Of a stretch of DNA of 63,112 bases, positions 9,233 through 21,557 are shown in pieces. The stretch spans positions 1 to 63,112 of the forward strand of contig CAINRW010000024.1 in assembly GCA_903852815.1 (NCBI GenBank). Reading direction: 5' to 3'. The stretch comes from an uncultured Actinomycetes bacterium (GTDB taxonomy: Bacteria; Actinomycetota; Actinomycetes; Nanopelagicales; Nanopelagicaceae). How positions within the stretch are numbered: position 1 is the first letter of the stretch; each line of letters starts with the position of its first letter. The position numbers and the translations under genes were made by a program. A model generated the notes under the pieces. That model did no database searches, had not been told where the DNA came from, and saw nothing but the letters and a program-made list of their open reading frames with translations.

Positions 9233-9248
9233 ATCAAGATTGGTCCAA

Positions 9249-10589
9249 GTGACTAACAAGAGCACGGCTCCACAAGGTTGGACCGTCGGCGACCTAGGCA
9301 GTTTTTATGCCGAGCACCGGTCAGAGCTCCACGCCCATGCCTCTCGCGTATTGAAAGACTCAATCAAGGCTCAAGAAATCACTCAAGATGCCTTAATCAA
9401 ATTCATGATGGCTGCTCCAGAGCTTGAATCTGCCGAACATGCGCTCTCTTATCTTCATCGCACTATTGAAAACCTTTGCATCGATTTCTTCCGCGCCGAA
9501 GGCCGTCGCCCTAATCTTGTTGTTCTAGATGATGCAACTGCAGAAATAGAAGCACATTGGCAAGACAGCGGAGATCACTCTGCGGCAATGTCAGCAGCTG
9601 AAGATGCAGCGATTATTCGCCAGGCACTTGCTTTGCTTTCTCCTGCAGAGCGCGCAGCTCTTGTTATGTGGGAAATCGAAGGTCGCTCTACAAGTGAGAT
9701 CGCGACAGAACTTGGCATTAAAGAAAGTGCAGTGCGCCATACCGTTTCACGTGCTCGTGTATCACTTCGTAAAGTTCTTGCAACGCTTGTTATTAATGAA
9801 GAGACCGGTCTTACTGCCCTCGATGCATTATCAACGACATACAAAAAAGCTGCAGAGCTTGCACAGAAATCATCTAAAGCTGCCCTCTCATTGCTTCTTA
9901 TCGTTACTGCTTTCTTTGGTTTTAACTCTATAAAAGGAACGCCTATCGCGATCGTCGAAACAACTACCGCGCCAACAGCTATTTCACAACCAACAGATCC
10001 ATCTGCTTCGGCTTCTCCTTCCATCACTGCTTCACAGAGTGCTGCAGCGGCAGCTGCTGAAAAGAAGGCGCAGATCGATGCACTTAACGTTAAAGCCGCA
10101 CCTATCTCTTTCTATGGTCTAGATAAAGCCGGTATTCCAACTGCTTTCACCGTGACTGATGAATCAAATGTTGCAGGAATTGGCCGAGTTACTAAGGGTG
10201 TTACATCTCTTGGAAATATCGGAATCATCATCAACAACCAGTTCATCACCGGCTCTGTTGGTCCAAACGTTCTTATCGATCAAGTCATCACAATTGATGG
10301 AACAGGTACTCACTACTCAGCAAACAGTGTCTCAGTCGGTTTTGTTAGCAACTGGAACGCTATTGAAGTAAACAGCATCGACACGATCATCGAGCGATTA
10401 GGTAATGGCACGTATTTGCTAAGCGCAACTTTCAACATCGGCTATCTCACTCCAACTGACTTTGCTTACCCAGTTGGAAATCGTGGAAGCGATCTAGCCG
10501 ATGCACCGAAAACAATCACAACGAAAATTTTAATGAATGCAGGAAAGACACAGGTACTTGCGCAAGCTGTTCAGGTGATTAACAAATAA
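9249..10589 (+). CDS. ECF-like sigma factor with membrane anchor and external C-terminal domain, copy 1
   Basis: 446 aa from GTG 9249; the listed TTG at 9240 adds only MVQ. GTG is chosen because the paralogue aligns there (caaGTG…aagagcacggc) and has an SD at that spot. Residues about 15-85 form sigma region 2 (ITQDALIKFMMAAP, LHRTIENLCIDFFRAEGRRP). Residues about 125-180 are region 4 with a helix-turn-helix (LSPAERAALVMWEIEGRSTSEIATELGIKESAVRHTVSRAR). A single hydrophobic helix, AALSLLLIVTAFFGF, lies near 211-229, followed by a Thr/Ser/Ala linker and a domain of about 160 residues (AAPISFYGLDKAG … AQAVQVINK). That implies a cytoplasmic sigma part and an outward-facing sensor-like domain. No anti-sigma gene is adjacent. 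The likely target is the surface protein gene just downstream (inference). Confidence 0.85.
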   Translation: MTNKSTAPQGWTVGDLGSFYAEHRSELHAHASRVLKDSIKAQEITQDALIKFMMAAPELESAEHALSYLHRTIENLCIDFFRAEGRRPNLVVLDDATAEIEAHWQDSGDHSAAMSAAEDAAIIRQALALLSPAERAALVMWEIEGRSTSEIATELGIKESAVRHTVSRARVSLRKVLATLVINEETGLTALDALSTTYKKAAELAQKSSKAALSLLLIVTAFFGFNSIKGTPIAIVETTTAPTAISQPTDPSASASPSITASQSAAAAAAEKKAQIDALNVKAAPISFYGLDKAGIPTAFTVTDESNVAGIGRVTKGVTSLGNIGIIINNQFITGSVGPNVLIDQVITIDGTGTHYSANSVSVGFVSNWNAIEVNSIDTIIERLGNGTYLLSATFNIGYLTPTDFAYPVGNRGSDLADAPKTITTKILMNAGKTQVLAQAVQVINK

Positions 10590-10632
10590 AAAAATTTCCT
10601 CATCGCAACCGGATAGTCGATGGGGAATTTGG

Positions 10633-10653
10633 TGAATCAGCACGTGCGATTCA
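10633..10653 (+). promoter_or_regulatory. Palindrome upstream of surface protein 1
   Basis: TGAATC-N9-GATTCA with CACGTG in the spacer, preceded by GGGGAATTTGG. The block is repeated nearly base-for-base before surface protein 2. It may be an operator or part of the promoter read by the neighbouring sigma factor. Confidence 0.5.
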
Positions 10654-10708
10654 TCGAACCGAGTTAGTGATTTTCTCGCCAAGTACGAGCTCATCACAAA
10701 ACTCAAGC

Positions 10709-10733
10709 CGACTCTCGGATCGTCCGAGAATCG
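10709..10733 (+). promoter_or_regulatory. 5' leader hairpin of surface protein 1
   Basis: CGAcTCTCGGA-tcg-TCCGAGAaTCG: seven perfect pairs plus three more beyond one mismatch, with a 3-nt loop. It lies 19 nt before the ATG, just upstream of the AAAGGAAAC ribosome site. Copy 2 has the identical hairpin. No T-run follows, so it is not a terminator; an mRNA-stabilising leader or translational control element is more likely. Confidence 0.6.
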
Positions 10734-10752
10734 ACTAATCGAAAGGAAACAA

Positions 10753-12441
10753 ATGTCTACAAAGACAACTTTCAAGCGCATCGCGCTTGTAACTGTTGCA
10801 GCGTTGGGTCTCAGCCTTGTTGCTGTAGCTCCATCACAAGCAGTTGTGGTTGACCTAACTTGTACTGTTGCAGGAAATATCGCAACATCTACAACATGCA
10901 GCCAAAACTCAGGTGCAAACAATTACGTAGTTCTAACAGCTGGTTCAGCTGACATCTACATCACAATCGCTGGTGGATCAATCGTTGGTGGAGGATCATC
11001 AAAGGTAGTTACACATGACACTTCAGTAGCAATCGCTACACCAATAGTTGGAACAATTACTGTTACAGGTTATACATTTGCACTTGGTGCTCAGTCAGCA
11101 ACAGCAACAGATACTGTCGTAATCACAGTGACTGATGCAGTAGCTACGGCTCTTACTGCAGCTCGTATCGCTGGTACTTACTACGATCACTCAACTGCAT
11201 TTATCAAGTCAAGTTCACTTGGCTCAGAAGCAACTGTTGATTCAACAGGAATTACATCTATTAAAGATGCTTCTGCAACTCCTGTAGCTCGTGTAACTGT
11301 TAAGCAATATTCATCAACTGATGCTACTTACTTCATGACACCACTCAGCGCAAAGCTAGTGACTGTTGCTGTTGTTGGTGGAGCAGGTTATGTTTCAACA
11401 GCAAGCAACGGAACACTTTCTGGTCCATCAGCAAGCGTTACTGCAGATGAAAGTTCAGACTTCTATGTTTATCCAAATGGCAATGCAGGCGTTGCGTCAG
11501 TAACAGTTACTGTTAATGGTGTCCTACTTGCTACAAAGTCAGTTACTTTCTACGGAACTGCTACAGCACTCACAGCTGCAGTAGCAACAACTGTTCTTAA
11601 AATCGGATCAAACGCAGCAGCAGTAGTAGTTACTGCAAAAGACTCACTAGGTAACATTGTGCCAAACACACCTGTTTATCTAGTTTCAGATACAGCAGCT
11701 TCTATTGCAACAGGTACATCACTTGGTACAACAGATTCAACTGGAACACTTACAGCGGCCATTTCAGGTGTTGCTGCAGGATTAGCTTCACTTACATTTG
11801 CTAACGGAACAGATACAGCCGCAGTCGGTTATGTTGTTTCTGGTGCAACAGCAGTTCGCGTAAGTGCTGCCACATCTTCAACTGCAACTGGTGTAGTTCT
11901 TGCATTCGACAAGGACTCATACCTTCCAGGTGAAGTTGCAACTGTTACAGCAACTGTTACAGATGCATCTGGTGCTGTTCCAAGTGGAATTGGTTATGTT
12001 GTATTAACAGCAGGTATCACTTCATCTCTAGTAATGACTTCAGGTTCCCTAACTCTTGGAGCAATTACAACAACAATCACACCAACAGGTAATGCTGGAG
12101 CACAATCATTCACAGTCAACATGCCTTTATCAGCAGGTACAGTGACTCTTAGTGCTACTGGAGTTACTGGTGTAACTGTTACAAATGCAACAGCAGTAGT
12201 TGCTAATGATTCAACTGCAGCAGATGCAGCAGCAGAGGCAACTGATGCAGCTAACGCAGCAACTGATGCAGCTAACGCAGCAGCTGAAGCAGCAGATGCA
12301 GCAACAGCTGCAGCACAAGATGCAGCAGATGCAGTAGCTGCTCTTTCAGCACAGGTTGCGACTCTGATTGCTGGCCTAAAGGCTCAGCTAACAGCTCTAA
12401 CAAACCTAGTAATCAAGATCCAGAAGAAGGTAAAGGCATAA
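10753..12441 (+). CDS. Secreted surface-layer-like protein, copy 1
   Basis: 562 aa, with AAAGGAAAC before the ATG and a signal peptide cleaved near APSQA. The mature chain is Ala/Thr/Val/Ser-rich with very few charged residues. The middle has Ig-like modules: VTAKDSLGNIVPNTPVYLVSD (Big_1-like) and FDKDSYLPGEVATVTATVTDASG (MG2/Ig-like). The last 77 residues are an Ala/Asp-rich heptad-like coiled coil (TDAANAATDAANAAAEAAD) ending LTNLVIKIQKKVKA. Length equals copy 2 exactly. Signal peptide and tail are almost identical between copies while the middle differs. An abundant cell-envelope or S-layer protein is the best reading; no anchoring motif other than the coiled coil is visible. Confidence 0.8.
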   Translation: MSTKTTFKRIALVTVAALGLSLVAVAPSQAVVVDLTCTVAGNIATSTTCSQNSGANNYVVLTAGSADIYITIAGGSIVGGGSSKVVTHDTSVAIATPIVGTITVTGYTFALGAQSATATDTVVITVTDAVATALTAARIAGTYYDHSTAFIKSSSLGSEATVDSTGITSIKDASATPVARVTVKQYSSTDATYFMTPLSAKLVTVAVVGGAGYVSTASNGTLSGPSASVTADESSDFYVYPNGNAGVASVTVTVNGVLLATKSVTFYGTATALTAAVATTVLKIGSNAAAVVVTAKDSLGNIVPNTPVYLVSDTAASIATGTSLGTTDSTGTLTAAISGVAAGLASLTFANGTDTAAVGYVVSGATAVRVSAATSSTATGVVLAFDKDSYLPGEVATVTATVTDASGAVPSGIGYVVLTAGITSSLVMTSGSLTLGAITTTITPTGNAGAQSFTVNMPLSAGTVTLSATGVTGVTVTNATAVVANDSTAADAAAEATDAANAATDAANAAAEAADAATAAAQDAADAVAALSAQVATLIAGLKAQLTALTNLVIKIQKKVKA

Positions 12442-12550: not shown

Positions 12551-12622
12551 TGTCCGTTTTGTCCGTTCTCCACCACAAATTGACCAGTCCAGCGTAGAAG
12601 CAGATTGAAGGACGCTTTTACG
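12551..12622 (+). promoter_or_regulatory. Conserved leader of sigma copy 2
   Basis: TGTCCGT boxes at 12551 and 12560, AGCGTAGAAG at 12591 (31 bases after the second box), nine bases, then GGACGCTTTTACG at 12610. Spacings are the same as in copy 1 although the sequence between is different. It has one GGACGCTT box rather than two. AGCGTAGAAG and CTTTTACG form an imperfect inverted pair. Confidence 0.6.
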
Positions 12623-12637
12623 AATGGAGAAATTCAA

Positions 12638-13975
12638 GTGGCTAAAAAGAGCACGGCACCACATGTGTGGACCGTTGGCGATCTTGGCAGTTTTTATGCC
12701 GAGCATCGTTCAGAGCTCCATGCCCATGCCTCCCGTGTTTTGAAGAATTCAGCTAAAGCTGAAGAAATCACTCAAGATGCCTTAATCAAATTTATGATGG
12801 CTGCTCCAGAGCTTGAATCTGCTGAGCACGCACTTGCATATCTACACCGCACTATTGAAAACCTTTGCATCGATTTCTTCCGTGCCGAAGGCCGTCGCCC
12901 CAACCTTGTTGTTCTAGATGATGCAACTGCAGAGGTTGAAGCACAGTGGCAAGACAATGGCGACTATTCAGCAACGATGTCAGCTGCTGAAGATGCAGCG
13001 ATTATTCGCCAGGCACTTGCATTGCTTTCTCCAGCAGAGCGCGCAGCGCTTGTTATGTGGGAAATCGAAGGTCGCTCCACAAGTGAGATCGCGACAGAAC
13101 TTGGCATTAAAGAATCTAATGTTCGATACACAGTCTCACGTGCCCGCGCATCACTTCGTAAAGTTCTTGCAACGCTTGTTATTAATGAAGAGACTGGTCT
13201 TACTGCTCTCGATGCATTATCAACGACATACAAGAAAGCTGCAGAGCTTGCACAAAAATCATCTAAAGCTGCGCTCTCACTTCTTCTTATCGTTACTGCG
13301 TTCTTCGGTTTTAACTCACTTAAGGGAACACCTTCTACAATCGTCGATGCAACTTCATCAACGACAAACTCTGCAGAAGCTACTCCTTCACAATCTGCAT
13401 CACCTTCTATCTCTGCCTCACAGAGCGCTGCTGCGGCAGCTGCTGCAAAGAAGGCGCAGATTGATGCACTTAACGTTAAAGCTGCACCTATCTCTTTCTA
13501 CGGTCTAGATAAAGCCGGAATACCAACTGCTTTCACTGTAACTGATGAAACAAATGTTGCAGGTATCGGCCGTGTTACTAAGGGTGTTACATCCCTTGGA
13601 AATATTGGAATCATCATCAACAACCAATTCATCACCGGCTCTGTTGGTCCAAACGTTCTCATCGATCAAGTCATCACAATTGATGGAACAGGTACTCACT
13701 ATTCAGCGAATACCGTCAGTGTTGGTTTTGCCGAGAGCTGGAACGGCGTTGAAATAAACAGCATCGATTCATCGATTGAGCGCCTAGGAAATGGCACTCA
13801 TCTCATCACAGCAACTTTTGATATCGGTTATCTCAAGCCAACTGATTTTTCATTCCCAGTTGGAAACCGCGGAAGCGATCTTGCCGATGCACCAAAAACA
13901 ATTACTACGAAAATTTTAATGAATGCAGGAAAGACACAGGTGCTTGCGCAAGCAGTTCAGGTGACTAACAAATAA
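12638..13975 (+). CDS. ECF-like sigma factor with membrane anchor and external C-terminal domain, copy 2
   Basis: 445 aa from GTG 12638, preceded by TGGAGAAATTCAA (SD GGAG); the listed ATG at 12605 lies within the conserved leader motif and is unlikely. Layout matches copy 1: sigma region 2 (ITQDALIKFMMAAP), region 4 (STSEIATELGIKESNVRYTVSRAR), one membrane helix (AALSLLLIVTAFFGF), a Ser/Thr/Ala linker (TPSQSASPSISASQSAAAA) and an external domain of about 160 residues. Differences from copy 1 cluster in the linker and in one stretch of the external domain (AESWNGVE for VSNWNAIE, HLITATFDIGYLKP for YLLSATFNIGYLTP). The helix-turn-helix has small changes (SNVRY for SAVRH) that could alter promoter choice. 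Release by regulated proteolysis is possible but not visible. Confidence 0.85.
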   Translation: MAKKSTAPHVWTVGDLGSFYAEHRSELHAHASRVLKNSAKAEEITQDALIKFMMAAPELESAEHALAYLHRTIENLCIDFFRAEGRRPNLVVLDDATAEVEAQWQDNGDYSATMSAAEDAAIIRQALALLSPAERAALVMWEIEGRSTSEIATELGIKESNVRYTVSRARASLRKVLATLVINEETGLTALDALSTTYKKAAELAQKSSKAALSLLLIVTAFFGFNSLKGTPSTIVDATSSTTNSAEATPSQSASPSISASQSAAAAAAAKKAQIDALNVKAAPISFYGLDKAGIPTAFTVTDETNVAGIGRVTKGVTSLGNIGIIINNQFITGSVGPNVLIDQVITIDGTGTHYSANTVSVGFAESWNGVEINSIDSSIERLGNGTHLITATFDIGYLKPTDFSFPVGNRGSDLADAPKTITTKILMNAGKTQVLAQAVQVTNK

Positions 13976-14018
13976 ATAGCTTTCCCTATCGCGTCCGGAT
14001 ACACGATGGGGAATTTGG

Positions 14019-14039
14019 TGAATCAGCACGTGCGATTCA
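14019..14039 (+). promoter_or_regulatory. Palindrome upstream of surface protein 2
   Basis: TGAATCAGCACGTGCGATTCA is identical to the element before surface protein 1 and preceded by the same GGGGAATTTGG. Conservation across the duplicated non-coding sequence argues for function. Confidence 0.5.
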
Positions 14040-14060
14040 TCGAATCGAGTGAGAAGCGCT

Positions 14061-14119
14061 TTCGCGAAACGCGAAGGAGTTTTAAAACTCAAGCCGACTC
14101 TCGGATCGTCCGAGAATCG
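14061..14119 (+). promoter_or_regulatory. 5' leader hairpins of surface protein 2
   Basis: Two hairpins. TTCGCG-aaa-CGCGAA (14061-14075) is present only in this copy. CGAcTCTCGGA-tcg-TCCGAGAaTCG (14095-14119) is identical to copy 1 and again lies 19 nt before the ATG. Confidence 0.55.
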
Positions 14120-14138
14120 ACTAATCGAAAGGAAACAA

Positions 14139-15827
14139 ATGTCTACAAAGACAACTTTCAAGCGCATCGCGCTTGTAACTGTTGCAGCGTTGGGACTCAG
14201 CCTTGTTGCTGTTGCTCCATCACAAGCAGCATATAACGCACTTGCATGTACTGTTGCAGGTTCAGGCGCTGGTTCATCATCAGTTGCTTGCAGCCAGAAC
14301 TCAGGTGTAAACAACTACGTAGTTCTATCTGCTAACAACTCAAAAGATCTATACATCACAATTGCTGGTGGATCAATGGTTGGCGGAGGATCAGTAAAGG
14401 TAGTTACAGCAGGCGGTTCAGTTGCAATTGCAACACCAACAGTTGGAACAATCACAGTAACTGGTTACACATTTACTGCTGGTGCTCAGGCAACAACAGC
14501 TACAGATACTGTAGTAATCACAGTAACTGATGCAGCTGCTGTAGCTCTTGCTGCAGCTCGCGCAGCTGGTACTTACTTTGAGCGCTCAACAGCATTCATC
14601 GGTGCAGGTTCATCACCTGTTTCTTCAGATACAGCTAATTTAGTTGCTCCAAAGGCAGCTTCATCAACTCCTGTTGCTAACATCGAAGTTATTCAGTACT
14701 CAACAGCTACTGGCGTTTCTCCAGCAGTTATGATGCAGAACGCAAGTGCAAAGCTAGTAACAGTTTCTGTTGCTGGTGGAGCAGGTTACGTTTCAACAGC
14801 TAGCAACGGAACTCTTGCTGGACCATCTGCAAGTGCAACTGGTGCTGCAGATTCTGATTTCTACATCTACTCAAACGGTAATGCAGGAGTAGCTTCAATC
14901 ACAGTATCTGTTAACGGATCAGTAGTTGCTACAAAGTCAGTAACTTTCTACGGAACAGTTGCTTCACTAACTGTTGCGCCAGCACAGTCACTATTTTGGA
15001 ACGGCTACTCAACTCCTAATGCAACTGTGATCACTGCAAAGGATTCATTGGGTAACGTAGTTCCTAACGTTGACATCTACACTGTTTCAGATGCAACAAC
15101 AGTAATTGCTGATAAGAATTATGTTGGATACACAGATTCAAAGGGTGTTCTCAGTGCAACCATCGCCAGCCTTGCAGTTGGTACAGCATCATTAGCTTTT
15201 GCTAATGGAACTGATTCAACAGCGGCTGGTTATGTAGCTACATCAGCAACAGCAGTTCGCGTAAGCGATGGTTCTGGTGATATCTCTGTCGTAGTTTCAT
15301 TCGACAAGGACACATACCTTCCAGGTGAAGTTGCAACAGTTACATACACTGTTTCAAACGCAGCTGGTCCAGTTCCAGCATGGAGCTCTGCTTCTGGTTA
15401 TGTGAATGACACAACATCATCACTAGCTCTTACAACGAATAACCTACCTTCTTATTATTTGAATATTAAGGGTGATAAGGGTCAGGCTTCATACAAGGTC
15501 AACATGCCTCTATCAGCAGGTACAGTTGAACTTTCAACTACTCCTTACTCAGACTCAGTCAAGGTAACTAATGCATCAGCAACAGTTGCTCTAGATACAA
15601 CTGCAGCAGATGCAGCAGCAGAGGCAACAGATGCAGCTAACGCAGCAACTGATGCAGCTAACGCAGCAGCAGAAGCAGCAGATGCAGCAACAGCTGCAGC
15701 ACAAGATGCAGCAGATGCAGTAGCTGCTCTTTCAGCACAGGTTGCAGATCTAATCGCTGGCCTAAAGGCACAGCTAACAGCTCTAACAAACCTAGTAATC
15801 AAGATCCAGAAGAAGGTAAAGGCATAA
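14139..15827 (+). CDS. Secreted surface-layer-like protein, copy 2
   Basis: 562 aa from ATG 14139. The listed 14049 start adds 30 residues encoded by the conserved leader hairpins and is rejected; the AAAGGAAAC site precedes 14139 as in copy 1. The signal peptide MSTKTTFKRIALVTVAALGL… matches copy 1 exactly. The centre has the same Ig-like plan (VITAKDSLGNVVPNVDIYTVSD, FDKDTYLPGEVATVTYTVSN) but many substitutions and small length changes that cancel to give the same total length. The C-terminal Ala/Asp coiled coil and LTNLVIKIQKKVKA tail differ from copy 1 at only two positions of 77. Likely a cell-surface protein exposed in the middle and anchored or oligomerised by the tail. Confidence 0.8.
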   Translation: MSTKTTFKRIALVTVAALGLSLVAVAPSQAAYNALACTVAGSGAGSSSVACSQNSGVNNYVVLSANNSKDLYITIAGGSMVGGGSVKVVTAGGSVAIATPTVGTITVTGYTFTAGAQATTATDTVVITVTDAAAVALAAARAAGTYFERSTAFIGAGSSPVSSDTANLVAPKAASSTPVANIEVIQYSTATGVSPAVMMQNASAKLVTVSVAGGAGYVSTASNGTLAGPSASATGAADSDFYIYSNGNAGVASITVSVNGSVVATKSVTFYGTVASLTVAPAQSLFWNGYSTPNATVITAKDSLGNVVPNVDIYTVSDATTVIADKNYVGYTDSKGVLSATIASLAVGTASLAFANGTDSTAAGYVATSATAVRVSDGSGDISVVVSFDKDTYLPGEVATVTYTVSNAAGPVPAWSSASGYVNDTTSSLALTTNNLPSYYLNIKGDKGQASYKVNMPLSAGTVELSTTPYSDSVKVTNASATVALDTTAADAAAEATDAANAATDAANAAAEAADAATAAAQDAADAVAALSAQVADLIAGLKAQLTALTNLVIKIQKKVKA

Positions 15828-15865
15828 TCTGCCCCCTTTGATCTGAATAAGATCTAGAACCAAAG

Positions 15866-15895
15866 CCCGGTTCCTCTTCGGAGGGGCCGGGTTTT
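15866..15895 (+). terminator. UUCG-loop terminator of cassette 2
   Basis: Same 11-bp stem, TTCG loop and TTTT as in cassette 1, together with the flanking AATAAGATCTAGAACCAAAG. Confidence 0.92.
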
Positions 15896-15974
15896 GGCTT
15901 TTCTGGAAGGCTTTCTCGACTGGCACGCAGACAAGGTTCAGGCAGTTCTCAGGAAAAAGGTATCTAATATCCAC

Positions 15975-17327
15975 ATGACTACTCCAACACGCATCTATAA
16001 GCACTCAGGCGCTGGTACAGACTGGGCCGCGCTGGTTCTGGGCCTTGGGTTGGGCTTCACAATAGCTTTGGAGTTAACAACGGTACGCAAAAGTGACTTC
16101 ATATCTGTCTATGCCTCGATAGCTACTTTTTCTCGAATTTCTGCATTAGTAGGAACGTATCTGGCAATCGTAGGAATCTTTTTAGTAGCTCGAATCCCCT
16201 GGGTTGAAAAAGGTGTTGGTCATGATCGATTGGTTACCTGGCACCGCAATTTAGGTCCATGGTCTTTGTATGCAATTGGTGCACATGTTGCTTTTATTAT
16301 TTTATCTTTCGCAGGTCAAGATTCAATTCCTCTGTATAAAGAATTATGGCGAATGCTCAATACTTTCGACTGGATGTGGTTTGCTTTAGCAGGATTTATT
16401 CTGATGGTTTTAGCTGGAGTTACTTCATATAAAAAAGCACGGGCAAAGATGAGTTATGAAACGTGGTGGATTATTCACGTTTACACATACTTGGCAGTTG
16501 CTGCATCCTTTATGCACCAAGTTATTAATGGTCAGATGTTTATTGGTCACCCATTAAACCGTGCTTATTGGACCGCGTTATATATTTTCATGGCATTCTC
16601 AATTATTTATTGGCGCTTTGGTGTTCCACTGGTGCGATCTCTAAAGATTAATTTGCGAGTCGAGAAAGTTGTAGTTGAAGGCCCAGGAGTAATTTCAGTA
16701 ATCATGAAGGGCCGTAATCTGCACACATTAGGTGCACAAGGTGGTCAATTCTTCGGTTGGCGTTTTCTTACTCGCGGCCATTTCTTGATGTCACATCCTT
16801 ATTCACTTTCGGCAGCACCGACTGAACATTTGATGCGAATTACAGTCAAGGACTTAGGTGATCACTCACGTTCATTAGCATTTATTAAGCCTGGTACCCG
16901 TGTATTTGTTGAAGGTCCATACGGTGCCTTTACTGCAGGGCGAAGTACACGACCACATGTTGTTTTAGTTGGTGGCGGGGTTGGAATCACTCCGATTCGC
17001 GCAATCATGGAAGAACTAAGTGGCGGCGTGCAGATGGATGTTATTTTCCGAGCATCAAAAGAAGAAGATTTAGTTTTGAAAAAAGAACTTGATTACATGG
17101 CATTTAATAGCGGTGGGTCTATCCGTATTCATTACTTAGTGGGATCACGCAAGAAGCACCCAATGGATGTTTATGCAATGCGCCGACTAGTCCCACAGTT
17201 TGCAGATTCAGACGTTTACATCTGTGGACCAGAGCCATTGGTAAGTGCAGTTCGTGAAGCTTTTGAAAAGGCTGGTGGATCAAAGAATCGCTTCCATGAC
17301 GAGGCATTTGCTTTCCACCGCGAATAA
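15975..17327 (+). CDS. Ferric-reductase-like membrane flavocytochrome oxidoreductase
   Basis: 450 aa from ATG 15975; the listed 15894 start reads through the upstream terminator. The N-terminal half has about six membrane helices with histidines suited to two haems (WHRNLGPWSLYAIGAHVAFI and WWIIHVYTYLAVAASFMHQVI), as in the ferric-reductase-like transmembrane domain. The C-terminal half is a ferredoxin-NADP reductase module: HPYSLSAAP for FAD, FVEGPYGAF, VVLVGGGVGITPIRAIM for the NAD(P) pyrophosphate and VYICGPEPLV. It would carry electrons from cytoplasmic NAD(P)H across the membrane. The next two genes encode a flavinylated acceptor and its flavin transferase, so the acceptor is probably FMN rather than only iron. 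Confidence 0.88.
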   Translation: MTTPTRIYKHSGAGTDWAALVLGLGLGFTIALELTTVRKSDFISVYASIATFSRISALVGTYLAIVGIFLVARIPWVEKGVGHDRLVTWHRNLGPWSLYAIGAHVAFIILSFAGQDSIPLYKELWRMLNTFDWMWFALAGFILMVLAGVTSYKKARAKMSYETWWIIHVYTYLAVAASFMHQVINGQMFIGHPLNRAYWTALYIFMAFSIIYWRFGVPLVRSLKINLRVEKVVVEGPGVISVIMKGRNLHTLGAQGGQFFGWRFLTRGHFLMSHPYSLSAAPTEHLMRITVKDLGDHSRSLAFIKPGTRVFVEGPYGAFTAGRSTRPHVVLVGGGVGITPIRAIMEELSGGVQMDVIFRASKEEDLVLKKELDYMAFNSGGSIRIHYLVGSRKKHPMDVYAMRRLVPQFADSDVYICGPEPLVSAVREAFEKAGGSKNRFHDEAFAFHRE

Positions 17328-17391
17328 AACACGCAGGTGTATATGCGATTGCCTTAAGAATTTTCTCAGGGAGATGGCGTTTAGTAGGCAT

Positions 17392-17423
17392 TAAGACAAG
17401 CAAGATTGGTAAGACAAGCAAGA
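17392..17423 (+). repeat. Two 14-bp direct repeats before the FMN-binding gene
   Basis: TAAGACAAGCAAGA occurs at 17392 and 17410 with an 18-nt period, within the 124-nt gap before the FMN-binding gene. It could be a regulator site or a chance slippage duplication. Confidence 0.6.
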
Positions 17424-17451
17424 CGGATGTGACAAACGAGAGGTAGCGAAG

Positions 17452-18108
17452 ATGAAAAGAGCACTGTTAATAGCAGGCGGCACTTTAGGTGGACTCGGCG
17501 CAGTAATGGCAATTACACCGCCACAATTATCTTCAACTAACTCATTAGGCCTTATAGGAGCAGGTGCAATCGGGGCACCTGCCGTGACTGATACTTCAAC
17601 GGCTTCTGCTACACCTACTGCGTCGTCAACCAAAGCTGCAACCACAAAACCAGTAGCGACCAAGAAGGCAACACCAGCTGCAACGAAGAAGGCAACACCA
17701 GTGGCAAGTAAGAGTGCAACCGCGCAAGCTACTGCAACAGCCAGTGCCAGTGCATCGGCAACGCCGGCTGCGACTCCAACAAAAACAGCAACGCCTGTCG
17801 CAACTAAAACAACAGCACCTGTCGTTACGAAATCTACAAGTGGAACATTTGCTGGTCCAGCAATTTTCGTGAACTACGGAACAGTTCAAGTTCAAATTAC
17901 TGTAAATAATGGAAAGATCACTGATGCAAAGGCGCTTCAAGCACCTAACGGTCGCAGTCAGCGTTGGACAGATATGGCAGTTCCAACTTTGCGTCAGCAA
18001 ACATTGAGTGCACAATCAGCAAATATCCAAGGTGCATCAGGTGCTTCATACACTTCTTATGGTTGGTATAAATCTTTACAGGGGGCTCTCGCTAAAGCTG
18101 GTCTCTAA
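17452..18108 (+). CDS. Secreted FMN-binding domain protein with long Ala/Thr/Lys linker
   Basis: 218 aa, with SD GAGAGG upstream. Residues 1-20 form an N-terminal hydrophobic segment. Residues about 45-130 are a low-complexity linker of Ala/Thr/Lys/Pro (TKKATPAATKKATPVASK), long enough to cross the cell wall. Residues about 138-218 are an FMN_bind domain: VNYGTVQVQITVNNGKITDA and then IQGASGASYTSYGWYKSLQGAL, in which SGASYTS matches the ApbE flavinylation motif (the modified residue is the Thr or Ser near the end). It probably shuttles electrons on the outer face, taking them from the preceding reductase. apbE follows 21 nt downstream. Confidence 0.87.
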   Translation: MKRALLIAGGTLGGLGAVMAITPPQLSSTNSLGLIGAGAIGAPAVTDTSTASATPTASSTKAATTKPVATKKATPAATKKATPVASKSATAQATATASASASATPAATPTKTATPVATKTTAPVVTKSTSGTFAGPAIFVNYGTVQVQITVNNGKITDAKALQAPNGRSQRWTDMAVPTLRQQTLSAQSANIQGASGASYTSYGWYKSLQGALAKAGL

Positions 18109-18129
18109 AGTATTAGATAGGCTCTAGCA

Positions 18130-18900
18130 ATGAACCACGTACGCAGACAGTTTCCTGTTTGGGGAACCATCATTGACGTGGATTGTTCTTCTCAAGTAAT
18201 TGATTCAAACCAGTTAAACAACGCAGTACAAGACATCCGAGATTTTTGTGTAACAGCTGATGAGGATTTTTCAACCTACATTGATTCGTCTTGGGTCACT
18301 CGATTACGCCGAGGAAAAGTAGAGATTCACGATTGTCCCAAAAACATTCAAGCGGTTTGGAACCTTTGCGAACAGGCAAAATACTTAAGTGACGACGCTT
18401 TCGATCCTTGGGCCGTGGAGGGTGGTTTCGATCCTTCTGGATTAGTAAAAGGTTGGGCAGCAGATATTTGCGCCGACATGTTGGTCTCTGCTGGCGCGCA
18501 GCATGTACAAATTAATGCCGCCGGTGATTTAGCATTGCGCGGCGGATATTTTGATTCTGCAGATGGCGTGATTAAGCCTTGGAAAATCGGGGTCGTTAAT
18601 CCAGATAACAAGCAAGAAATATTACAAACTTTTGAAATTACTGATGGCGCGATTGCAACATCAGGGACATACGAACGCGGTGCGCACATCACCGACCCAT
18701 ATACGGGCATGATTGCCATCGGTGCAAAATCTGCAACTGTTGTTGGGCCAGATGGGTGGCTGTGTGATGCTTTGGCAACAGGATTAATGGTTGCTGGTCA
18801 GGATGCAGCAAAGTGGTTTGGCCAGGAAGAGTTAGCCGACTATAAAGTTTGGGTGATTGATCGACATGAAAATAATGCATGGAGTATTGGTGACGAGTGA
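18130..18900 (+). CDS. apbE: FAD:protein FMN transferase
   Basis: 256 aa. ApbE signatures: VEGGFDPSGLVKGWAAD, VQINAAGDLALRGG, GAIATSGTYERGAHITDP for FAD and Mg binding, and CDALATGLMVAG. The enzyme transfers FMN from FAD to Ser/Thr of FMN_bind proteins; the adjacent FMN-binding protein is the obvious substrate. No signal peptide is evident at the N-terminus (MNHVRRQFPVWGT), so it may act in the cytoplasm or be exported by a weak signal; that is unsettled. The gene overlaps the next one by four bases (GTGA), implying translational coupling. Confidence 0.9.
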   Translation: MNHVRRQFPVWGTIIDVDCSSQVIDSNQLNNAVQDIRDFCVTADEDFSTYIDSSWVTRLRRGKVEIHDCPKNIQAVWNLCEQAKYLSDDAFDPWAVEGGFDPSGLVKGWAADICADMLVSAGAQHVQINAAGDLALRGGYFDSADGVIKPWKIGVVNPDNKQEILQTFEITDGAIATSGTYERGAHITDPYTGMIAIGAKSATVVGPDGWLCDALATGLMVAGQDAAKWFGQEELADYKVWVIDRHENNAWSIGDE

Positions 18901-21557
18901 CAAATAAAAAATTGAAAGTGAATCGACGTCTTGCCTATGCATTTACCGCGCTCTTTGCTTTTATTTCGATAGGTCTCACACCTGCGTACGCACTTGATGA
19001 ACGAACTATCGATGTTGTTTCAGTTACTTGGAAAGGTGCAGCAGCTCTTCCGACCACGGTTAGCGATATTGCTACAGCAATCAATACAAATGTAAATGCA
19101 CGATGGAAGTCTTATACAACTTTAGTTGGAGCACCAACTGATCGAACAATTTCTTTTATCTCCGGAAATGTCATAACCGAACCCATAACCGTAGCGGCAC
19201 AGATGCCTTGTTCTGGAACTGGTGCAAGTGTTTTTATGGGTGATGTTCGCGTTGAGGCATACAAGCGATTGGGTATCTCCGATTCGAGTAAGCGATATTT
19301 AGTTATCGCAGTTCCTCGATCTGGTTGTGCGTGGTCAGGTCGCGCACCGTTGGGAGAAGCAACTTCTACTAGTGGCACGATAGTTTTACATGAACCTGAC
19401 ACGGACGCGGCATTTGTAATTGCTCACGAACTTGGTCACACATTTGGTTTAGGCCATACAAATTTTCTCAGCTGTACGTCAGGTGCAAAAGATGGCCCAT
19501 GGGGCGATGACTGCAGTGCAGTCGAATATGGTGGAGTAGTTGACGTCATGGGCAACCAAGATACAAACTCAACATTTAATACGTATCACCAATGGCGCAT
19601 GGGTTATCTTGATGATTCCCAAGTTAAACAAGTGTGGCAAAGTGAAACGCTAACTTTATCTCCCAGTGATTTTGCAACTGGTTTAAAGGCAATCTATCTG
19701 CGAGATGGAAACTCGGCATACTGGATTGAATATCGCAGATCTAATCCATTAGTTTCATATCGAGAAGGTCTTGTTGTTTTTCGATTAGACCCACCCCCAA
19801 TAACAAACGTTGTGTCCCCAAATCCTGAAGATGCGTTAGCAAATGAATTTAGTGATGCTTTAGGTACCGATGTGTGGATGCTCAATATGGATAACTATCG
19901 TTACTCATTTTCACGTGGTTCGGGTTCAATGACTACCAAGAATGCTGCAACATATTCAGGAAAAACTTCAATCAGCGCAACAACTTCACCTACAGGTGCT
20001 GTCGTAACAATTACGCGAACACCAGATGCCACACCGCCACCAACACCAGAGCTTCTAAATATCAACGAGTGGCGCTATCCAAGCATCGAAATTGTGAATC
20101 CCGAGCAAGATGCAGACACAGTCATTACGGGCTATGAAGGCTCGTTCGATGGAGTCATCAAAACCCTTGAAGGATCAGCGCCTGAAAATTGGTATCCAAC
20201 TGTGCTCAATCCTTTTACGGTTCCAAAAGTTTTACATGTTCGCGATTTACCTGAAGGCAGCTATACATTTGCGCTTCGAGCAATAGATTTAGCAGGAAAT
20301 AAAAGCGAATGGTCAAAGCCAGTAAAAGTTGTCATCGATCGTGGACATCCAACCGTTACACCAGATTTCTCGCTCTCTTCAATTAATGCAAACCAAGTAA
20401 CTCTGGCATGGAACGGAGCGAAAGATTCGGGCAGCGGCCTGTGTCAGACAAATTTAGTAAATCAAGAGGGTCTAGTGTTTCAAAGTAGTAGTGAAAATAC
20501 TTCACCTCATTTTATAAATACTGTCGGAAATACTTTGAATACTTTTGCTCAGGTATTTGATTGCACCGGCAATGGAGTTACGGGCGAACTTTCTTTGGTC
20601 GATAAAATCATCCCGGCTAATACTCTGACTAAAACAGGCAAGTGGATTGCGGCAGCTTCTTCTTATGGAGCGGGTGCAATCAAGTGCACAGGAAAATGCA
20701 CCGCAAGCTTTATTACTAAGGGAAAATTTGATGTCCTTGTCGGCGCAGGGGCGAGCACAATTAAATCGGGAAAGAAAACGTTGGCAACAGTTCCCCTTTC
20801 TAAGTCAACGAAAATTCGAATTGGTGCGGCAATAGATTTAGGCAGTTCAAATAAGACTGTGCAGATTTCAGGCTCAAATTTCGTTGTTGTAGGCGTTCAT
20901 ACGGTTAGTGCCGCCTTTAATAATCAGAAAGATCTGGACCGCATTCCTGCTCCAAATGATTCATCACTCAATGATGATGCCCAGCTCATTCTTTCTAAAT
21001 ATGGCTTTAATCCCGGCGACTTTAGCCAAGAGTGGAGCGTTCTTCCGATGGGTGGAGGAACGACAACTAACGATGCGACTCTGGATCTATGTAACGCAGA
21101 GTATCCATCTGAAAAAAATAGAGTAGAACGCCGTCAAGTAGTGGTAACCAGAACGGGTTCCCCATATTCATTTCTCTCTTCAGAAGTCGTGCGGTACTCA
21201 TCAGAAACTGCTGCTGCCGGAGCTTTGAAAGAGTTACTTTCAACAATTGAAACTTGTAAAACTGAAGGTGGATATAAGGACAGTACTGGCGCATTGGTCC
21301 CCTACACGTTTACCGAGATTACGAATATTCCAAATGGAGTCGCACCGTATGATTCTCGATTATTTGTTCGAGCCACAATTAATTTTGGAAGTCGAGTAAG
21401 CCAATTACTTGGTTTTTATCAATACGACGGTGCGCTTTATACAGGTCTATATGTAATGCGGGATTCTGATGTTGCATATACCGATGCCGAAGTTTCGACA
21501 TGGATGCAGGTCGCTGTAACTATGGCAACTCGCCTTAAGAAACAATCACTGTTTTAG
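18897..21557 (+). CDS. Secreted M11-like zinc metalloprotease, multidomain
   Basis: 886 aa, GTG start overlapping the apbE stop. The signal peptide ends near TPAYA. The catalytic domain spans about residues 35-350, with AHELGHTFGLGH giving the full HExxHxxGxxH zinc site, then VDVMGNQ and STFNTYHQWRMGYL, which fit the gametolysin (M11) pattern with its Met-turn. After a Pro-rich link, residues about 380-480 form a fibronectin-like fold (EGSYTFALRAIDLAGNKSEW) and about 490-570 another. The last 190 residues (from about PAPNDSSLNDDAQLILSKYG) resemble extracellular PknH_C-like sensor domains with paired cysteines. The protease assignment is firm; the substrate is unknown. Confidence 0.83.
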   Translation: MTNKKLKVNRRLAYAFTALFAFISIGLTPAYALDERTIDVVSVTWKGAAALPTTVSDIATAINTNVNARWKSYTTLVGAPTDRTISFISGNVITEPITVAAQMPCSGTGASVFMGDVRVEAYKRLGISDSSKRYLVIAVPRSGCAWSGRAPLGEATSTSGTIVLHEPDTDAAFVIAHELGHTFGLGHTNFLSCTSGAKDGPWGDDCSAVEYGGVVDVMGNQDTNSTFNTYHQWRMGYLDDSQVKQVWQSETLTLSPSDFATGLKAIYLRDGNSAYWIEYRRSNPLVSYREGLVVFRLDPPPITNVVSPNPEDALANEFSDALGTDVWMLNMDNYRYSFSRGSGSMTTKNAATYSGKTSISATTSPTGAVVTITRTPDATPPPTPELLNINEWRYPSIEIVNPEQDADTVITGYEGSFDGVIKTLEGSAPENWYPTVLNPFTVPKVLHVRDLPEGSYTFALRAIDLAGNKSEWSKPVKVVIDRGHPTVTPDFSLSSINANQVTLAWNGAKDSGSGLCQTNLVNQEGLVFQSSSENTSPHFINTVGNTLNTFAQVFDCTGNGVTGELSLVDKIIPANTLTKTGKWIAAASSYGAGAIKCTGKCTASFITKGKFDVLVGAGASTIKSGKKTLATVPLSKSTKIRIGAAIDLGSSNKTVQISGSNFVVVGVHTVSAAFNNQKDLDRIPAPNDSSLNDDAQLILSKYGFNPGDFSQEWSVLPMGGGTTTNDATLDLCNAEYPSEKNRVERRQVVVTRTGSPYSFLSSEVVRYSSETAAAGALKELLSTIETCKTEGGYKDSTGALVPYTFTEITNIPNGVAPYDSRLFVRATINFGSRVSQLLGFYQYDGALYTGLYVMRDSDVAYTDAEVSTWMQVAVTMATRLKKQSLF

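Follow-up and report, generated by a model that had tools for sequence, protein, structure and literature searches.

The MsrQ-like systems surveyed by Meheust et al. (2021) comprise 1797 gene clusters from 1468 genomes and, in the part of the survey devoted to them, are described as broadly conserved in Actinobacteria (PMC8238504). According to the same part, the NAD-binding domain PF00175 is encoded in 1437 of the 1797 clusters, making NAD(P)H the likely electron donor, and a role in iron handling has been suggested for the 153 clusters that contain VIT1 (PMC8238504). The closest characterised flavin domain belongs to SaFMN3 of Streptomyces azureus, which carries covalent FMN on a threonine with an E0' of -184 mV (PMC10339131). 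The canonical motif recognised by the flavin transferase ApbE is D-x-x-[S/T]-G-A-[S/T], in which the Asp has been termed strictly conserved, although the effects of D-to-A substitutions were minor in tests and Ser proved a poorer acceptor than Thr (PMC12052999). Here, we describe a three-gene locus which is real, belongs to the MsrQ-like type and is ordinary for the phylum, yet departs from the canonical picture in its acceptor motif and in the form of its ApbE.

Gene content and surroundings of the locus

The window, that is, the whole 63,112-nucleotide stretch of DNA that was analysed, is contig C24 of a 1.63-Mb genome with a completeness of 94.7%. The nearest named relatives are IMCC19121 and SCGC AAA044-N04, along with genomes assembled from lake metagenomes, and other matches are labelled Candidatus Nanopelagicaceae. 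We take IMCC19121 and IMCC26103 to be isolates of the acI Actinobacteria, which are among the most abundant bacteria of lakes.

Three genes in tandem on the forward strand (15975-17327, 17452-18108, and 18130-18900, with gaps of 124 and 21 nt) encode a ferric-reductase/NOX-type flavocytochrome, an FMN-binding protein of 218 residues, and ApbE, an FAD:protein FMN transferase of 256 residues. The first-pass annotation had placed a transmembrane flavocytochrome, an FMN-binding protein and ApbE together, and Pfam matches confirm all 3 assignments: PF01794 (Ferric_reduct, 3.5e-16), PF00175 (NAD_binding_1, 9e-10) and, slightly below the family cut-off, PF08022 (FAD_binding_8, 2e-4) for the first gene, PF04205 (FMN_bind, 7e-6) for the second, and PF02424 (ApbE, 3e-32) for the third. 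ApbE and FMN_bind are each present in a single copy in this genome. The flavocytochrome gene starts at ATG 15975; a TTG at 15894 was rejected as the start because relatives give it no support. A strong intrinsic-terminator-like hairpin on the forward strand (15860-15897; a 17-pair stem followed by a T run) separates the triad from a secreted-protein gene on its 5' side.

The N-terminal half of the flavocytochrome contains 6 hydrophobic membrane segments, as judged by hydropathy, and the C-terminal part carries the NAD-binding domain PF00175. Two pairs of putative heme-ligand histidines, His90/His104 (13 residues between them) and His168/His181 (12 residues), are invariant among 14 relatives, as are core positions within HPYSLS (FAD motif), GGGVGITP (NAD(P)H motif) and CGP. 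In comparisons with PDB sequences, the protein produced weak matches to NOX2, NOX5 and DUOX and stronger ones to NADH-dependent FAD reductases, which fits its reading as a bis-heme flavocytochrome carrying domains for FAD and NAD(P)H. HemB was not found in the 94.7% complete genome, suggesting that the hemes of the cytochrome are probably scavenged; members of Planktophila have been reported to be heme-auxotrophic (PMC12381374).

The genes surrounding the triad vary between lineages. At the window's locus, apbE is followed by a gene for an M6-like metalloprotease (18897-21557, forward strand), the GTG start of which overlaps the apbE stop by 4 bp. Among 20 long neighbourhoods, the protease was found only in the window's genome and 2 close relatives and was rejected as a conserved part of the module. 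In several genera, genes for an HlyD-type protein, an ABC ATPase and a MacB-type permease lie 3' of apbE (L047, L050, L053, L055, L056, and L057), which suggests that the apbE locus is shared with a tripartite-like transporter there. In several other genera, a small protein with an N-terminal anchor resembling that of FMN_bind and a tail rich in Asp and Glu adjoins the FMN_bind gene (L049 9040-9369, L114 2356-2640, L138 5715-6014, and L139 3606-3881). The tail is also rich in His in L138 and L139, hinting at a possible metal-binding accessory; the 2 examples tested had no Pfam match, and the protein is absent at the window's locus. Elsewhere in the window, a two-gene unit is duplicated in tandem (9240-12441 and 12605-15827), each copy consisting of an ECF-type sigma factor that has a long extension at its C-terminus (88% identity between copies) followed by a secreted Ala-rich protein (66%). 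A similar sigma factor/Ala-rich pair lies near the module in genome G114 (L057).

A noncanonical acceptor motif and an ApbE without a signal peptide

The FMN-binding protein begins with a hydrophobic anchor (residues 4-22), followed by a linker of Ala, Thr, Ser and Lys. In the AlphaFold model, the N-terminal part is disordered, whereas the C-terminal domain (about residues 130-216) is predicted with confidence. The window's protein has a single N-terminal hydrophobic segment, as do 87 of the 88 complete FMN_bind proteins from the order, so that hydropathy predicts the protein to be tethered outside the cytosol, as in the MsrQ-like system. The linker had been described as long enough to span the wall, with the flavinylation motif at its end. 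Both descriptions need correction: across 88 relatives, the linker is not conserved in length (about 22-185 residues, median 102), and the motif sits within the folded domain, C-terminal to the disordered linker. The best structural match of this domain is domain 2 of SaFMN3 (PDB 8p2a; TMt 0.93, rmsd 1.0, 52% identity), which was also retrieved by sequence, and the flavin-contact residues Tyr14, Ile45 and Tyr73 of SaFMN3 align with Tyr142, Trp172 and Tyr200.

Alignment with SaFMN3 domain 2 places the flavinylation motif, QGASGASYT, at 18028-18054 (forward strand). The predicted ApbE acceptor is Ser199 (codon 18046-18048), which directly follows SGA and aligns with the Thr of SaFMN3. The flavinylation motif recognised in the first pass is present as S-G-A-S, but the annotation did not remark that the motif (Q-G-A-S-G-A-S) has Gln in place of the canonical Asp and hence departs from D-x-x-[S/T]-G-A-[S/T]. 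Of 97 FMN_bind domains from the order, 88 have Ser and 9 have Thr at the acceptor position; a single one retains the canonical Asp, and 10 carry Gln or Arg instead of the central Gly. Loss of the Asp as a peculiarity of the order was rejected, because Gln, Asn, Ala or His occupies this position also in Acidimicrobiia and other Actinobacteria, many with intact triads. The noncanonical motif is thus part of a wider drift rather than an oddity of the window. An FMN_bind subtype with 2 cysteines, in which CRS[QR]AS[FY]T replaces SGA[ST], still adjoins ApbE (L040, L041, L042, L094, L112, and L132) and occurs alone or in tandem in several genomes.

The window's ApbE lacks a stretch of about 50 residues present in longer ApbEs (Pfam positions about 75 to 125). 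Its predicted structure (pLDDT 91.5) nevertheless has the ApbE fold, with TM scores of 0.74-0.88 to solved ApbE/Ftp structures, and His186, Asp213 and Thr217 of the catalytic and Mg/FAD sites are conserved, His186 aligning with Vibrio cholerae His257, the residue altered in the H257G structure. When 101 ApbEs from the order were aligned, 99 had the catalytic His.

According to a review, ApbE is typically membrane-anchored and periplasmic, with cytosolic cases known, and the SaFMN3 study speaks of extracellular membrane-bound flavin transferases (PMC10339131). By contrast, the first conserved motif of the order's 101 ApbEs comes after a median of only 11 residues, leaving no room for a signal peptide. 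A clearly hydrophobic N-terminal stretch was detected in 1 of these proteins, probably owing to a mis-set start, and in none of 47 from other Actinobacteria. The window's ApbE accordingly shows neither the secretion signal nor the outside anchor that are typical, if not universal, of the family. This combination of a signal-less transferase and a membrane-anchored substrate had gone unremarked in the first-pass annotation, and the useful point that it raises is the site of flavinylation. To judge from hydropathy, either flavinylation would precede export or ApbE would leave the cell by an unrecognised route. It is conceivable, although we regard it as rather doubtful, that in this order and probably in Actinobacteria more widely the short, signal-less ApbE attaches the flavin in the cytosol and the flavinylated FMN_bind protein is then exported. 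If so, a flavinylated protein would cross the membrane, reversing the usual view of ApbE acting outside. The window's genome encodes TatC; of 88 FMN_bind proteins, which usually start with MKR and in some cases with MKK, no more than 7 have a twin Arg among their first 20 residues, and Tat export of the folded holoprotein does not appear to be supported as a solution. The signal-less ApbE makes the site of flavinylation in Actinobacteria directly testable.

Distribution, co-retention and loss of the module

Because a PF04205 search misses diverged FMN_bind domains (20 of 60 genomes detected), the census was based on ApbE and local alignments. Of 201 genomes in the order, 111 encode ApbE, including 72 of 108 near-complete ones, and 15 of 16 genera are represented. 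The full triad is present at 85 of 101 apbE loci, the window's included, whereas contig ends hide part of the locus in 14 cases and only 2 are true exceptions; in one genus, the gene order is ApbE, flavocytochrome, FMN_bind. The triad was also found in Acidimicrobiia, Frankia, Streptomyces and Thermoleophilia. Recurrence of the same triad within and beyond the order argues against chance co-location of the 3 genes. Both exceptional loci have lost both partners of apbE, and they are exactly those in which ApbE has lost its catalytic His segment (L101 2301-3029 in G133 and L110 2384-3115 in G156). In the flavocytochrome tree, the order's 33 sequences form one group (support 98/91), arguing for vertical descent. 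Recent import was considered as a source of the module, and the tree bears no sign of it. In genome G193 (L143 791-3212), a second, longer ApbE adjoins a protein of the ferric-reductase type that ends in a 2Fe-2S domain; this is a distinct flavin-linked system within the same genus.

Within the window's genus, the module is patchy, with ApbE encoded in 8 of the 13 closed genomes of the sample and missing from 5. Neither FMN_bind nor an intact flavocytochrome is present in any of the 8 near-complete ApbE-less genomes tested, which include these 5. Two closed genomes retain scars of the loss. In G064, the 5' part of the flavocytochrome gene runs in frame into the final 45 codons of apbE (L231 5401-5690), and in G070 only the first ~50 flavocytochrome codons are left (L230 5357-5551), the deletion extending beyond an aldo/keto reductase gene. 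The different breakpoints indicate that the three genes are lost together and that the module can be dispensed with. The sequenced strains IMCC26103 and IMCC19121, which carry the module, and the closed module-less genomes offer a natural comparison.

Electron path, rival readings and known systems

We interpret the locus as operon-like and as encoding an MsrQ-like flavinylation system in which NAD(P)H drives electron transfer across the membrane, through a covalent FMN, to an extracytosolic acceptor, and assign this reading a probability of about 0.85. In the predicted topology and direction of electron flow, cytosolic NAD(P)H would reduce FAD in the flavocytochrome's C-terminal half, and electrons would traverse the membrane via 2 stacked b hemes (His90/104 and His168/181) to reach an FMN which ApbE had linked covalently to Ser199. 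The FMN_bind domain, fixed to the membrane's outer surface through its N-terminal anchor and flexible linker, would then swing and deliver electrons to an acceptor outside the cytosol, with ferric iron or some other small oxidant of the envelope as the likeliest. Speaking against this model are the motif without Asp, the Ser acceptor, the ApbE without an export signal, and the dispensability of the module in the genus. The first-pass proposal of flavin-based extracytosolic electron transfer in a planktonic freshwater cell of the acI group agrees with the composition of the locus, although it is no surprise for the phylum, the type being already described.

As to the acceptor, ferric iron as the main one is a tentative choice, to which we give somewhat less than even odds. 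Iron reduction, one of the functions first proposed, stays a candidate and gains no specific support, as VIT1 and FTR1 are present with and without the module. Of the 201 genomes of the order, 193 encode VIT1 and 154 encode FTR1, among them all 5 closed module-less genomes of the genus, so that an iron link by co-occurrence was rejected as uninformative: the 2 genes are near-ubiquitous and do not track the module. The triad lacks the adjacent or co-distributed Fe(II) transporter, such as VIT1, that would mark an assimilatory ferric reductase; VIT1 of the window's genome lies on another contig (C19). Among the neighbourhood genes, none points to an acceptor, nor does any lend support to relief of redox stress, the other function proposed at first.

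Three other readings deserve consideration. The module might feed an extracytosolic enzyme of its own, encoded at another locus, much as MsrQ feeds the periplasmic methionine sulfoxide reductase MsrP, and thus serve envelope repair or processing rather than iron. Its membrane core is homologous to MsrQ, going by the MsrQ-like section of the survey (PMC8238504), and the varied, lineage-specific neighbours (the M6-like protease, the HlyD/ABC/MacB-type transporter, and the Asp/Glu/His-rich small anchored protein) would accommodate such a role; however, no partner gene accompanies the triad throughout the order, and we consider this reading unlikely. A chain ending on dioxygen, which would release superoxide or peroxide outside or consume O2 near the membrane and make iron irrelevant, appears less likely still. 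The heme-ligand spacing is that of NOX/FRE proteins, NOX2, NOX5 and DUOX are among the weak PDB matches, the habitat is oxic lake water, and reduced SaFMN3 is reoxidised by O2 (PMC10339131). Yet reduced flavins react with O2 in general, which shows no function, and NOX enzymes do not need a covalent extracellular flavin. Peroxide output would also seem costly; catalase is included in media for culturing Planktophila and other lake bacteria (PMC12381374).

Finally, the noncanonical FMN_bind domain might no longer be flavinylated in this lineage and might act as a passive or decaying remnant, as the lost Asp, the replacement of the central Gly in 10 of 97 domains and the repeated loss of the module could suggest. 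This is very improbable: Ser or Thr is kept at the acceptor position in 97 of 97 domains and the catalytic His in 99 of 101 ApbEs, ApbE decays only where its partners are gone, many other Actinobacteria with intact triads also lack the Asp, and D-to-A effects were minor in tests (PMC12052999). If the electron-transfer reading is correct, a conserved yet optional chain that uses scavenged heme and flavin to reduce an acceptor outside the cell would provide a strain-variable link to the iron and oxygen chemistry of lakes.

A partial literature search found no paper combining flavinylation and this order. The locus resembles the MsrQ-like system, as characterised in the part of the survey describing it, in combining a six-helix bis-heme PF01794 protein with a C-terminal PF00175 domain, FMN_bind and ApbE in one cluster. 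It is set apart from that description by the acceptor motif without Asp, the Ser acceptor and the ApbE without a signal peptide and, unlike the VIT1-linked clusters, has no adjacent VIT1. With SaFMN3 (PMC10339131; PDB 8p2a) it shares the FMN_bind fold (about 52% identity), the N-terminal anchor and a flavin transferase gene alongside, but SaFMN3 has 3 flavin domains with FMN on Thr in Asp-x-x-SGAT, whereas the window's protein has a single domain with QGASGAS. As in Listeria (Ndh2/EetAB/PplA/FmnB), an ApbE-dependent flavin is predicted on an anchored extracytosolic protein. Extracellular electron transfer in Listeria is a quinone-linked chain with lipoproteins, whereas the module described here is proposed to draw electrons directly from NAD(P)H through one flavocytochrome. 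Finally, the flavocytochrome resembles NADPH oxidases and ferric reductases in the 2 His pairs in TM3 and TM5 and in its FAD and NAD(P)H domains, predicted to be cytosolic, but in contrast to these enzymes its electrons are expected to go to a separate, covalent flavoprotein.
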